NCBI GenBank assembly: GCA_027038255.1
Contig: JALVXQ010000218.1
Coordinates: 1 to 32,669 of the forward strand
Direction: 5' to 3'
DNA length: 32,669 nucleotides
Source: Sulfurimonas sp.
GTDB taxonomy: Bacteria > Campylobacterota > Campylobacteria > Campylobacterales > Sulfurimonadaceae
Shown here: positions 5,119 through 23,265 of the stretch, one piece after another
Position numbering within the stretch: the first letter of the stretch is position 1
How the letters are laid out: each line of letters opens with the position of its first letter
Program-made: the position numbers and the translations under genes
Notes under the pieces: generated by a model
Told to the model about the DNA's origin: nothing
The model's input: the letters and a program-made list of their open reading frames with translations, nothing else
Databases searched by the model: none

Positions 5119-5872
5119 AATCTCCCATATTTCTTGTGTTATGATTGTAAAAAATGCTGAACCCACATTAAGAGATGTACTTGACGCCCTTCATTCATTT
5201 CAGGAAGTCATCGTTTACAGCAACAACTCCACTGACAAAACCGACACTATTGCAGCATCATATCCAAATGTAAAACTTATTCAAGGCGAATTTATAGGCT
5301 TTGGTCCGACAAAAAATCTTGCGGCCTCTCACGCAACAAACAGCTGGATCTTCTCACTTGATGCTGATGAAGTTGTGACAAAAGAGTTCATAGAAAATCT
5401 TGCGCAAACAAAACTCTCAAAAGAGTATGTTTACTCCATCTTACGCACAAATTTTTATAAAAAAAGAGAGATTAAACATTGCTGGGCAGCTGATGAGATC
5501 ATCCGCATCTATAACAAAGAGGTCACAGCTTTTACAGATAAACATGTTCATGAACATATCATGCAAAAAAGTCTGAAAAAAACAATGATTTTGGGACTTA
5601 TAAAACACTATACCTACACATCCATCGAGGAGTTCATTAATAAAGCCAACACCTACTCCACCCTCTTTGCACAAAACAATGCCGGCAAAAAAAGTTCATC
5701 TCCAAGTAAAGCCTTTTTTAATGGAGCTTACTCTTTCATCAAAACATACTTTTTCAAGCAGGGTTTTCGTGACGGCTATGTAGGACTTTTAATCGCCTAT
5801 AGCCACATGGTAACGAATTTCTATAAATATCTTAAACTCTATGAATTAAATGAAGAACTAAAGAGAAAGTAG
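5111..5872 (+). CDS. Glycosyltransferase family 2 (WaaE/KdtX-like)
   Basis: ISCVMIVKNAEPTLRDVLDALHSFQEVIVYSNNSTDKT...FSLDADEVVTKEF. Start at ATG 5111 (MTKISHIS) overlaps the upstream stop by 8 nt. The longer ORF from 4994 is mostly out-of-frame overlap with the kinase gene. Confidence 0.85.
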   Translation: MTKISHISCVMIVKNAEPTLRDVLDALHSFQEVIVYSNNSTDKTDTIAASYPNVKLIQGEFIGFGPTKNLAASHATNSWIFSLDADEVVTKEFIENLAQTKLSKEYVYSILRTNFYKKREIKHCWAADEIIRIYNKEVTAFTDKHVHEHIMQKSLKKTMILGLIKHYTYTSIEEFINKANTYSTLFAQNNAGKKSSSPSKAFFNGAYSFIKTYFFKQGFRDGYVGLLIAYSHMVTNFYKYLKLYELNEELKRK

Positions 5873-6823
5873 CTCTTTTCGCACGCTTTCAAACATTGTT
5901 TCTCTTTTGGACTTGTCTACCGGAAGCATATAATGTTTTTGCAGTTTTTTATCGCCTATACTTTTCCATCTCGCAGCACTCGCAAAGTTCGAATCTCCAA
6001 AAAATGTCATCGTTGCTGTTCCCACCAAAGAAGCAAGATGATAAGTTCCAGTGGAAGTTGAGACAAAAAGTTTAAAATTCGCTATAAGTTTTGCAAAATT
6101 GACGATGCCCTCATTTGAGAGGTGAAAAACTACTTTTTCACCTTCTAATCTCTTTTGCATATCCTCACGCAAGGCATTTTCATCAGGGCCAAAAGTCAGT
6201 ACAACATCATATTTCTCCTGTCTGAGAACATCACGAATGAGGATTTCATACTCATCTAAGTTCCAATTTGCATCGGATGAGCCGCCAAAACCGACATGAA
6301 AAGCTATCACTTCTCTTTTAATTCCATTTTTCTGACAAAACTGCTCATAAATAGCTTTACTGTCATCAAATTGCAATAGTGGCTTTGGATAGCTGATGTC
6401 AATGTCGCTAAATGCCTCACGTGCTAGTGCCAAGTTATACTCAAACTCTGCCATCTTCACTTCACTGCGTCGCTGTTTTATGCGGTGATTGTAAAAAATT
6501 TGTGCTATCTTTGTTGCCGGTGCGTAACGTTTCTTGATACCTGCCAAGAACTGTGCCAAAGCTACCCGTGTGTTTGAAAAGAGTGTAATTGAAAGGTCAA
6601 TTTTTGCAGATTTCAACTTGCGTGAGAGTTCAAACAGAGAGCTTTTGCCATCATCAACAAGCACCTCATCAATAAAGTCACATGCCTCAGCTAAGGCTCT
6701 GTTAAGCGGTGCAACAAGAACAATGACTCTATTTTGAGGATCATGCTTTTTTAACACATACATTGTTGGCAGTGCTGTGATGAAGTCTCCAAGTTTATCT
6801 GTTCGTACAACTAATATATTCAT
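5858..6823 (-). CDS. Glycosyltransferase family 9 (heptosyltransferase-like)
   Basis: MNILVVRTDKLGDFITALPTMYVLKKHDP and FVSTSTGTYHLASLVGTATMTFFGD are GT9 signatures. Confidence 0.85.
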   Translation of the reverse strand: MNILVVRTDKLGDFITALPTMYVLKKHDPQNRVIVLVAPLNRALAEACDFIDEVLVDDGKSSLFELSRKLKSAKIDLSITLFSNTRVALAQFLAGIKKRYAPATKIAQIFYNHRIKQRRSEVKMAEFEYNLALAREAFSDIDISYPKPLLQFDDSKAIYEQFCQKNGIKREVIAFHVGFGGSSDANWNLDEYEILIRDVLRQEKYDVVLTFGPDENALREDMQKRLEGEKVVFHLSNEGIVNFAKLIANFKLFVSTSTGTYHLASLVGTATMTFFGDSNFASAARWKSIGDKKLQKHYMLPVDKSKRETMFESVRKELLSL

Positions 6824-6828
6824 AAAGC

Positions 6829-7097
6829 AAGTACCTATCCAGAAGTAAAACCAACTAACAGCGATAAGAAAAAGGTACAGATATAAGGCAGATTTTTGAA
6901 ATCCTAGCCGTAGCTAAGATGAGAAAATCTAACGCAGTAGATGTGCCTTTTTCTTATCGCCCGTAGGGAGGCTTAAAATGATAACGATTACTGCGTTAAA
7001 AAGAGTTGAAGCTATTAATAGCTCCTGCCTCTTTTTGCCTTGTACTCATCATCATTTTAAACCTCTGTTATTTGGTTTTACTTCTGGATAGGTACTT
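6829..7097. mobile_element. MITE-like / structured element with 33-bp terminal inverted repeats and two internal hairpin arms
   Basis: 6829-6861 AAGTACCTATCCAGAAGTAAAACCAACTAACAG versus 7065-7097 CTGTTATTTGGTTTTACTTCTGGATAGGTACTT: reverse complements, 32/33. Internal: 6861-6879/6942-6960 (18/19, remaining pair G-U in RNA), 6968-6982/7051-7065 (14/15), 6930-6939/6989-6998 (10/10), 6998-7005/7029-7036 (8/8), palindrome AGCTATTAATAGCT 7010-7023. Confidence 0.75.
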
Positions 7098-7128: not shown

Positions 7129-8421
7129 ATGAAAAAACCTTTTGCATGGGATGCCTATTCCGACCAGCCGGCACTGCTTACAGATAGAGATTTTAAAAAA
7201 AAGATGCGAAAAAAAGAACGTAACTCTCTTTTGTATACTATCGTCTCTGCACTCATTTTTCTGCCTCTCTCTTTGCTCGCGATGCCTTTTGTCAAAAGAA
7301 AAGAGATAGATACTACACATTTTTTCTCTTTGGGTGTCGATTTTGAACGAGAGAGAGCTCTCACGCAGGAGCTTTTAGAGGAACTTGAGGTAGAGTCTGT
7401 TTTACTTCGTTTAAAACTTTGGGAGATGGAAAAACTCCCAGAGCTTAAAACCTTTGTACAACAGAACAAAGAGAAAAAAATCATCTTAAAAATCATGCAG
7501 GACAGAGAGCATATAGAAGATTTGACACTGCTGCAAAGTGACCTGAGAACTATTTTTTCCGAGCTGCGTGAGCATGTTGACATCTTCGAAATCGGTACAA
7601 CCATCAACCGTGCCAAATGGGGATTTTTCTCTGCCGGAGAGTATCTACGGTTTTACAAGCTTGCCTATGATTTAAAAATCTCTGAATTTAAAGATATTAA
7701 CCTCATCGGCAGTGGTGTCATCGATTTTGAGCTCTACTACACGGTGCATACTCTTTTTAATTTCTGCAAATGCAAGTACGACGGTGTTGCCTCTTTGTTG
7801 TATGTTGACAGACGTGGTGCACCGGAAAACACGCAATTGGGATTTAACCTTACAGACAAAATCGCTCTGCTGAGCACTATGGTCTGGCTCAGCCCCAAAA
7901 CAAAACAAAAACTCTACATCACGGAGACAAACTGGCCTATCAGCGGCACCGCGCCCTATGCACCGACAAGTGAGTATGAGTGCGTAAGTGAAGAAGCCTA
8001 CAGTGACTATATGCTGCGCTACTATCTGCTCAGTTTCGCTTCCCAACAGGTTGATTCTCTCTCTTGGCACCAGCTTATTGCCCCTGGTTATGGGCTCGTA
8101 GACAATCGTGAAGGCATACACAAACGAAAAGCTTTTTATGTTTACAAATATATGTTTGCAACACTCCAAAATGCACAGTTCTTACGTCTTGATATTAAAA
8201 GAGGCTATTATATCATTCAATTTTGGATTGATGAACAACTTCTGCAGGTGCATTGGTCACTCAATGAGACAACTCTAAAAAATGAAGAGTTTTTTGAAGT
8301 TTACTCTAAAAGCGGAAAAAAAATAGAAGATGAGATACTTGAGATTGGTTCTGCACCACTTTATATCTTCATCACTAAAGAGGTCGGTCAAAAAGTCAAT
8401 GCAAGTGAGAGGATAGGATGA
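7129..8421 (+). CDS. Putative membrane-anchored glycoside hydrolase (TIM-barrel-like) in LPS locus
   Basis: Basic N-terminus plus one TM (SLLYTIVSALIFLPLSLLAMPFV), then a soluble domain with FEIGTTINRAKWG and YITETNWPISG resembling acid/base and nucleophile strands of GH clan A. The ORF extension to 7006 is encoded by the inverted-repeat element; ATG 7129 (or 7111) is more likely. Confidence 0.55.
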   Translation: MKKPFAWDAYSDQPALLTDRDFKKKMRKKERNSLLYTIVSALIFLPLSLLAMPFVKRKEIDTTHFFSLGVDFERERALTQELLEELEVESVLLRLKLWEMEKLPELKTFVQQNKEKKIILKIMQDREHIEDLTLLQSDLRTIFSELREHVDIFEIGTTINRAKWGFFSAGEYLRFYKLAYDLKISEFKDINLIGSGVIDFELYYTVHTLFNFCKCKYDGVASLLYVDRRGAPENTQLGFNLTDKIALLSTMVWLSPKTKQKLYITETNWPISGTAPYAPTSEYECVSEEAYSDYMLRYYLLSFASQQVDSLSWHQLIAPGYGLVDNREGIHKRKAFYVYKYMFATLQNAQFLRLDIKRGYYIIQFWIDEQLLQVHWSLNETTLKNEEFFEVYSKSGKKIEDEILEIGSAPLYIFITKEVGQKVNASERIG

Positions 8422-22281: not shown

Positions 22282-22884
22282 TTAGTATGTCTCTCTATGC
22301 ATCGCTACCAATTTTACATAATTACCACTATCTGCATTTTTTAGTGCTTGTATATATTCATCTCTTCTAGTATTTTCTTTAGAGAGTAAATTCTCTTGCC
22401 ATTTTACCGGCATAGAACCATTTTGTCTTAGGTAGATATTTGCTAACATTCTGCTCCATCTGCCATTTCCATTTTGAAAAGGGTGTATCTGTACCGCTCT
22501 GTGATGAATACGGGCAGCTGTTTCATAGATGTCATATGTTTTATATTCATCCCAATAAGCGATATCGTCTGCCAACTCTTTGAGTGCTGTAGGTACTTGA
22601 TACGCTTTTATCCCTATTGAGAGTTCACCTGATCTCAACTTGCCTGCCCACTCCCAAACATTACCAAACATCTCATAATGCAATTGCTGTAGCCATTCAT
22701 AAGTAAACGGTGCTATTTTTTTAGATGGTGGAGCTGAGAGATATTTCAATGTTGCAAGTGCTATATTGTTCGCTTCTGCCTCATATACTTCTTTGAGAGT
22801 ATAAACCCTATGGCTTGGTAGTTTGAGTCCTGATATCTCATCAAGTGGTGTAGCGTCATCTATAGGCTTTGTAGAGTTTATCAT
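22282..22884 (-). CDS. Fic/DOC domain protein of the 'mobile mystery protein B' type
   Basis: Fic motif HPFQNGNGRWSR, plus LHYEMFGNVWEWAGKLRSGELSIG and DDIAYWDEYKTYDIYETAARIHHRAVQIHPF. Confidence 0.9.
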   Translation of the reverse strand: MINSTKPIDDATPLDEISGLKLPSHRVYTLKEVYEAEANNIALATLKYLSAPPSKKIAPFTYEWLQQLHYEMFGNVWEWAGKLRSGELSIGIKAYQVPTALKELADDIAYWDEYKTYDIYETAARIHHRAVQIHPFQNGNGRWSRMLANIYLRQNGSMPVKWQENLLSKENTRRDEYIQALKNADSGNYVKLVAMHRETY

Positions 22885-23265
22885 TTAAGCTACCCAAAGA
22901 GTATTTTTGTAATCACCATGTAAAAACTCATTTTCATACATAGATATTATCTTTTTAAGACTAGCATCTTCTAAGCCTTGCATTTCAAGTGCTGATGTCC
23001 CTTGCACGATGGAAGCTAAATAGAGTGCTTTCTCTTTTGCTCTTTGTTTTTGTAGCTCTTTTAAGGGTATTTGTTCATTTCCTGCAAAATCCAAACCCAA
23101 AAGGTTTGTAACTGCCTCAATAGTGCTTAGTTTCACATCTTCATTTTTTAAAAGACGATTAATAGTACGAACTCCAACACCACTCAGCTTTGCTAAGTTT
23201 TCAACAGTGATGCCAAGCTGCTCTTTTCTAGCAATAATTTGCTCTATTAATTCTAAACGCTTCAT
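22885..23265 (-). CDS. HTH (XRE-like) regulator / putative antitoxin partner of Fic protein
   Basis: GITVENLAKLSGVGVRTINRLLKNEDVKLSTIEAVTNLLGL is a helix-turn-helix; 0-nt gap to the fic ORF (ends 22885, fic begins 22884). Confidence 0.85.
   Translation of the reverse strand: MKRLELIEQIIARKEQLGITVENLAKLSGVGVRTINRLLKNEDVKLSTIEAVTNLLGLDFAGNEQIPLKELQKQRAKEKALYLASIVQGTSALEMQGLEDASLKKIISMYENEFLHGDYKNTLWVA

Follow-up and report, generated by a model that had tools for sequence, protein, structure and literature searches.

A two-armed inverted-repeat element between divergent genes of Sulfurimonas sp. and its probable kinship with ERIC repeats

The stretch of DNA analysed here, termed the window, comprises 32,669 nucleotides of the genome of Sulfurimonas sp. 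(contig JALVXQ010000218.1) and harbors a 269-bp element at 6829-7097, which lies between two divergent genes with start codons at 6823 (minus strand) and 7129 (plus strand), as the first-pass annotation had placed them. The features of the locus are as follows, where R1 denotes a covariance model of the arm, whose E-values are rough.

5858-6823, minus strand: gene for a glycosyltransferase of family 9 (heptosyltransferase; Pfam PF01075, 1.2e-16), its start codon 5 nt from the element
6829-7097, no strand: the whole element, with four full copies in the genome and empty orthologous sites
6829-6861, plus strand: left terminal inverted repeat (TIR) of the AAGTACCTATCCA end type, 32/33 identical to the right end; this end is conserved in the copies
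6863-6958, sense on the plus strand: arm 1, with AAGGCA at 6885-6890 and TAACGCAG at 6930-6937 (R1 81.0 bits, E 7.2e-15; this arm is not itself a row of alignment A3, in which close relatives of it are rows)
6960-6968, plus strand: linker mini-hairpin CCC-GTA-GGG, with CCCNNNGGG kept across phyla
6970-7063, sense on the minus strand: arm 2 (R1 76.4 bits, E 9.1e-14, on the minus strand)
7065-7097, minus strand: right TIR, matching the left end
7129-8421, plus strand: divergent flanking gene without a Pfam match, with orthologs in 38 of the 61 relatives searched

Elsewhere in the window (22282-23265, minus strand), a Fic/DOC-domain protein adjoins an Xre-type HTH protein in a toxin-antitoxin-like pair.

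The inverted-repeat ends of 33 bp, the two self-complementary arms, the mini-hairpin between them and the palindrome of arm 2, all described from the letters by the first-pass annotation, were found in the sequence where it had located them, and a repeat search lengthened the terminal match to 40 nt at 93% identity. Arm 1 is closed by a 19-nt stem, in which 6861-6879 pairs with 6942-6960. Folded as RNA, the plus strand of the element reached -119.9 kcal/mol (z -14.5 against dinucleotide shuffles) and the minus strand -130.3 (z -17.0), while the plus strand folded as DNA gave -67.7 (z -14.4). The element encodes no clear protein, as had been noted, and has no transposase gene; the 471-aa frame that begins at a TTG within the element and continues into the downstream gene is mechanical. 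Only 5 nt separate the left end from the start codon of the heptosyltransferase-like gene, so that any transcript of this gene initiated on the far side of the element would include all of it in the leader, arm 2 then being in sense.

Arms 1 and 2 are homologous, inverted versions of a single hairpin module of about 95 nt, which is constructed in the order outer stem, C-AAGGC-R, inner hairpin, Y-AACGMAG and outer stem, with CCC-NNN-GGG between the modules; read on the plus strand, the loop of arm 2 appears as CTGCGTTA (6991-6998) and TGCCTT (7036-7041). This homology bears on a fourth complementarity, TAACGCAGTA/TACTGCGTTA, from which a switch between alternative folds had been proposed. The pairing is real, and it arises because both inverted-homologue arms carry the conserved internal-loop sequence, so that no fold switch need be assumed. 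In a related copy, L021 (G007:C216:9234-9522), about 20 extra bases in arm 2 give a second CCCNNNGGG-like hairpin.

The earlier remark that no second copy was seen did not hold, for the same genome (2.26 Mb in 350 contigs) contains four full copies, the three further ones at 94, 85 and 84% identity, plus partial matches, and full copies with the same outer end occur also in relatives of the genus. In several sister species the orthologous divergent gap is short and devoid of the element; it reads ATTCATAAAG-TTATTTTATCTTAAAATGGCTATAATTGCACTT-ATG in genome G022 and ATTCATAAAGC-[element]-AATTTATCTTAATATGGCTATAATTGCACTT-ATG in the window, and the gap of the closest ortholog (G007, 92%) is likewise empty. 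The element was therefore inserted between the divergent genes in this lineage and is no conserved regulator of the two genes. The other copies lie at unrelated loci in divergent (31), codirectional (24 plus 24) and convergent (16) gene contexts. Short, without a transposase gene, bounded by TIRs, present in multiple copies with conserved ends and absent from an orthologous site, the element has the features of a MITE, as the first-pass annotation had surmised, and the window copy indeed lacks an intact target-site duplication.

More divergent matches had the interior in common and other ends, for instance GGGCACCTCTAAAAA, CTGACCTTA and AAGTGCCTAACC. One genome per GTDB species was then searched with a pattern built solely from the loop motifs and the central mini-hairpin (AAGGCR-N28-56-TAACGMAGW-N16-46-CCCGWAGGG), which retrieved at least 119 stretches. 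The matches listed come from Vibrio, Shewanella, Acinetobacter, Alteromonadaceae, Photobacterium, Thiodiazotropha, Serratia, Desulfoluna, Sulfurimonas and other Campylobacterota, together with single records from Bacteroidota and Lentisphaeria, and most of these listed matches are full elements with TIRs, commonly of 264-272 bp. Their spacing is nearly constant (AAGGC, 37-39 nt, TAACGMAG, 21-22 nt, CCCNNNGGG, 21-22 nt, CTKCGTTA, 37-39 nt, GCCTT), in a count that entered some elements twice, once per strand. In L008, L011, L012 and L015, and in Desulfoluna loci such as L089 and L121, the AAGGC/TAACG loop is retained in one arm only, the other arm being a hairpin that lacks it.

Searches with R1 revealed 38 arms in the genome of the window, and matches in 52 of 100 relatives, in 7 of 30 genera. 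Within the order of Shewanella KJ10-1, 32 of 59 genomes gave matches, with as many as 70 arms listed for a single genome. No matching family was found in Rfam for the elements searched, no match in phages, and none to the Shewanella element in E. coli; two matches on viral contigs were set aside, as they do not pair and look like chance. Plasmid matches of the gamma elements are few, the full-length ones lying on very large, unannotated replicons. The open-access literature yielded no description of a two-armed family, and earlier accounts of single families, for instance in Shewanella, may exist.

The terminal repeats vary independently of the core. Copies from Shewanella (G105, G106) end in GGAAGGTGCGAATAAGTC, the first 16 bp of which are identical to the end of IS5A of E. 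coli K-12, and many of them are flanked by YTAR duplications. In several copies of the GGGCACCTCTAAAAA class of Campylobacterota the flanking duplications are 4 bp long (TTAA, TTCA and TGAA, for example), and a 1270-bp insertion sequence of the same order possesses the end of this class, together with an IS5-family transposase and a TTAA duplication. The likeness to the IS5 family is confined to the terminal 16 bases or so, which are all that the 1270-bp insertion sequence and the GGGCACCTCTAAAAA elements have in common; the elements lack a transposase, and their core is not derived from the insertion sequence. In the GGGTCTGTTGATC class, TA duplications lie within YTAR-like targets, which suggests mobilisation by another type of transposase.

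The end of the window copy, AAGTACCTATCC, differs from the IS5 type and belongs to no class with 4-bp YTAR-like duplications, so that only its sister classes are of IS5 type; the flanks of the AAGTACCTATCC class suggest a TA duplication. The proposed search for a transposase by the element's ends came back empty, no partner insertion sequence with AAGTACCTATCC ends being found in the 61 genomes searched, and a scan of the IS630 family pointed to no clear partner for GGGTCTGTTGAC ends. One core is hence common to elements with different ends, and an origin of the ends from a named transposase family is shown for the IS5-type ends only.

Several further repeats were encountered in these searches. 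In genome G026 a short inverted repeat, TAAGTGCCTCTCC, occurs some 30 times or more (e.g. L200:1392-1420 and L206:1311-1372), and its end resembles the outer end of the window element; its sites were considered as partner ends and set aside, since they appear to form part of a separate short repeat, often close to gene ends, which could be terminator-like or REP-like. Genome G067 has numerous copies of a repeat of about 160 bp (e.g. L192:203-363) whose AAGGGAACCTCTAAAAA ends recur in nearby IS5-family copies; this is a separate, ordinary-looking MITE. In G063, a 172-bp short form (L198:163-334) bears GGGCACCTCTAAAAA ends, as do the 267-269-bp copies of that genome.

Selection on the structure of the arms is revealed by covariation. 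The arms were aligned in sense (5'-AAGGC...YAACGMAG-3'), giving 66 arms that differ by more than 25%, a set in which arms from a single element do not count as independent. The only invariant columns are GGC, AAC, and the A and G of the internal loop; the stems differ completely between arms with pairing kept, and 33 of the 35 predicted pairs have changed on both sides. Of the cells, 87.7% pair, compared with 49% after shuffling and 35-43% when the partners were slid (covariation score 0.953 vs 0.228). The aligned arms had been partly filtered for pairing, but this filter does not account for the result: when 121 loci were picked out purely by sequence motif, 113 of them were paired at no fewer than 9 of the 18 stem positions (mode 14). 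Pairing extends to the loop borders, where the residue after AAGGC co-varies with the residue before AAC (A-U 49, G-C 9, G-U 7, A.C 1) and the C preceding AAGGC pairs with the final G of YAACGMAG (C-G 60, U-G 6). The earlier view of a MITE-like element with more internal pairing than transposition in trans needs is thus supported, and the checks proposed with it, on multiple copies, empty orthologous sites and covariation, all turned out positive.

The mismatches further disclose which strand is folded. A palindrome selected only as double-stranded DNA is expected to hold G.T and A.C mismatches in equal number. Among 78 elements oriented by the linker, a count that includes related copies, the ratio of G.T to A.C was 82/15 in the stem of arm 1, 6/64 in that of arm 2 and 59/54 in the TIRs. 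Within 70 non-redundant arms read in sense, for which kinship was handled by the 25% divergence filter alone, the loop-proximal 13 stem positions held 80 G.T against 7 A.C (p about 1e-16), and still 28 against 6 (p 2e-4) once the wobble-rich positions 6-8 were omitted; G.T was in excess in 48 arms, A.C in one, and 21 were tied. No bias appeared at the stem base, positions 14-19 (25:25). Since the direction of the bias is opposite in the two arms and the TIRs lack it, each arm is selected as a single-strand fold, of RNA or ssDNA, each DNA strand having one sense arm; the TIRs, in contrast, behave like double-stranded transposase sites.

As to the nature of that strand, U.G is the commonest pair at one position. 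G.T is the mildest mismatch in DNA as well, and the bias is therefore no proof of RNA. In one-armed copies the sense arm is unbiased with respect to flanking transcription (7 vs 10), so that a role in the local mRNA is not favoured. Taken together, the data favour RNA over ssDNA only moderately, and RNA is regarded as the somewhat likelier of the two.

ERIC repeats have been known since 1990-91. The mechanism of their transfer was still described as not elucidated in 2007 (PMC2759123), and an orientation-dependent effect on the stability of flanking mRNA, via RNA folding and RNase E, has been reported (PMC2229807), which suits a strand-specific RNA module. Like the window family, ERIC (also IRU or RU-1) is intergenic, with TIRs and one long stem bearing a C-AAGGCG / CAACGCAG loop. 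The E. coli copy (sequence from PMC2759123), when reverse-complemented, reads ...GAGTTGCAGC-AAGGCG-...-CAACGCAG-CTGCAGCTTG..., with the C-G closing pair present and the co-varying pair in its G/C form. Other ERIC copies likewise carry the C-AAGGC-R / Y-AACGNAG internal loop on a stem, the last loop base varying in several. R1 matched ERIC copies at this loop, though with weak scores: 17.8 bits for one copy (E 0.005, in a small set) and 13.5 bits for two that align in a shifted register, the remaining copies scoring lower. At 127 bp with TA at the ends, ERIC has ends that resemble those of the TATACCC class of two-armed elements, agreeing with the best of them at 19-21 of 27 positions and with other elements less well; beyond the first 7 nt, the shuffle p is 5e-5 to 1e-3.

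ERIC differs in having one arm rather than two, an apical hairpin of about 56 instead of 38 nt, no CCCNNNGGG linker and a range confined to enterobacteria and relatives. On these sequence resemblances, common descent of ERIC and the two-armed elements is considered quite probable, and ERIC would probably represent a one-armed relative of the two-armed family. The window element, with two arms, 269 bp and other ends, is therefore a relative of ERIC and not an ERIC itself.

Other known systems share parts of this anatomy. REPINs and BIMEs likewise contain two inverted hairpins, one in sense on each strand; they are described as short palindromes that carry GTAG or CGTC tags and are linked to Y1 transposases (PMC3116915, PMC3733652), and so differ in anatomy from the present family with its IS-type TIRs, target duplications and ~95-nt modules. 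The CIR repeats of Caulobacter and Brucella, by their published description (PMC2229807), resemble it in having two long inverted repeats that form arms connected through a linker, but the same description gives them a GANTC motif in a loop and no terminal stem between the ends. An integron attC site, a folded ssDNA with AAC boxes, was set aside because AAC lies here in the internal loop rather than at the arm ends.

The explanation preferred here, held with slightly better than even confidence, is that the element is a MITE of a widespread ERIC-like superfamily with exchangeable ends and modules selected as single strands, the folded strand being likelier RNA. A transposase provided in trans would recognise the terminal repeats as double-stranded DNA, and these repeats would be exchangeable around one core, which is found inside two classes of IS5-type ends, as judged by matching ends and target duplications, and inside ends with TA duplications. 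The module would fold as the single strand 5'-AAGGC...YAACGMAG-3', so that either strand, once exposed or transcribed, would have one correct module. Read-through transcripts in either direction may thereby present one module to a conserved host factor, for example an RNase or an RNA-binding protein, and the element could benefit, for instance by tuning or insulating transcripts around its insertion. The first-pass interpretation is partly supported; beyond it lie the strand-specific arms, the variation of the TIRs independently of the core, the spread over several phyla and the probable inclusion of ERIC.

A possible though less probable alternative is that the arms act as folded ssDNA, with one sense arm per strand, recognised whenever DNA becomes single-stranded, as on the lagging strand or during conjugation or transformation, by such agents as a structure-specific nuclease or recombinase, a primosome or RNA polymerase; mobility itself may use the fold. 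The two-fold inverted layout, the independence of selection from local gene orientation, the strict Watson-Crick pairing of positions 11-13 with almost no G.T, and the strong folding of the strand as DNA are all consistent with it. By contrast, the commonness of wobble pairs, including the prevalent U.G, is typical of RNA, the IS5-type ends and duplications point to ordinary double-strand DDE transposition, and no cognate single-strand recombinase surfaced in searches directed at other targets.

That the element is an ordinary MITE, whose functionless palindromes are upheld by template switching or arm-to-arm gene conversion, is very improbable. Such processes do homogenise bacterial inverted repeats, and the TIR mismatches are unbiased; yet the arms' strand bias is opposite, and gene conversion as the sole upkeep is rejected because of it, while the loop residues stay invariant and the spacing fixed over several phyla despite unrelated stems. 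Least credible of all is the domesticated insulator or leader of divergent LPS genes that the first-pass annotation had envisaged, for although the element fills the divergent gap and ends 5 nt from a start codon, the gap is empty in sister species including the closest, copies occur at unrelated loci in every gene arrangement, and arm sense is unbiased relative to flanking transcription.

If the preferred explanation, a superfamily of structured MITEs, is carried further, and the chances of this appear about even, the elements would form a cross-phylum class of structured satellites, in which a strand-specific module of about 95 nt, independent of the transposase, acts on conserved host machinery and was enclosed, more than once, by ends from different IS families, with ERIC as a one-armed offshoot. 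The family also shows that in a bacterial MITE a single-strand structure under selection can persist across phyla even as the ends differ, unlike what one would expect if it were simply an insertion sequence with an internal deletion. Since the two-armed family links an ERIC-like fold to IS-like ends, its origin and function become testable.
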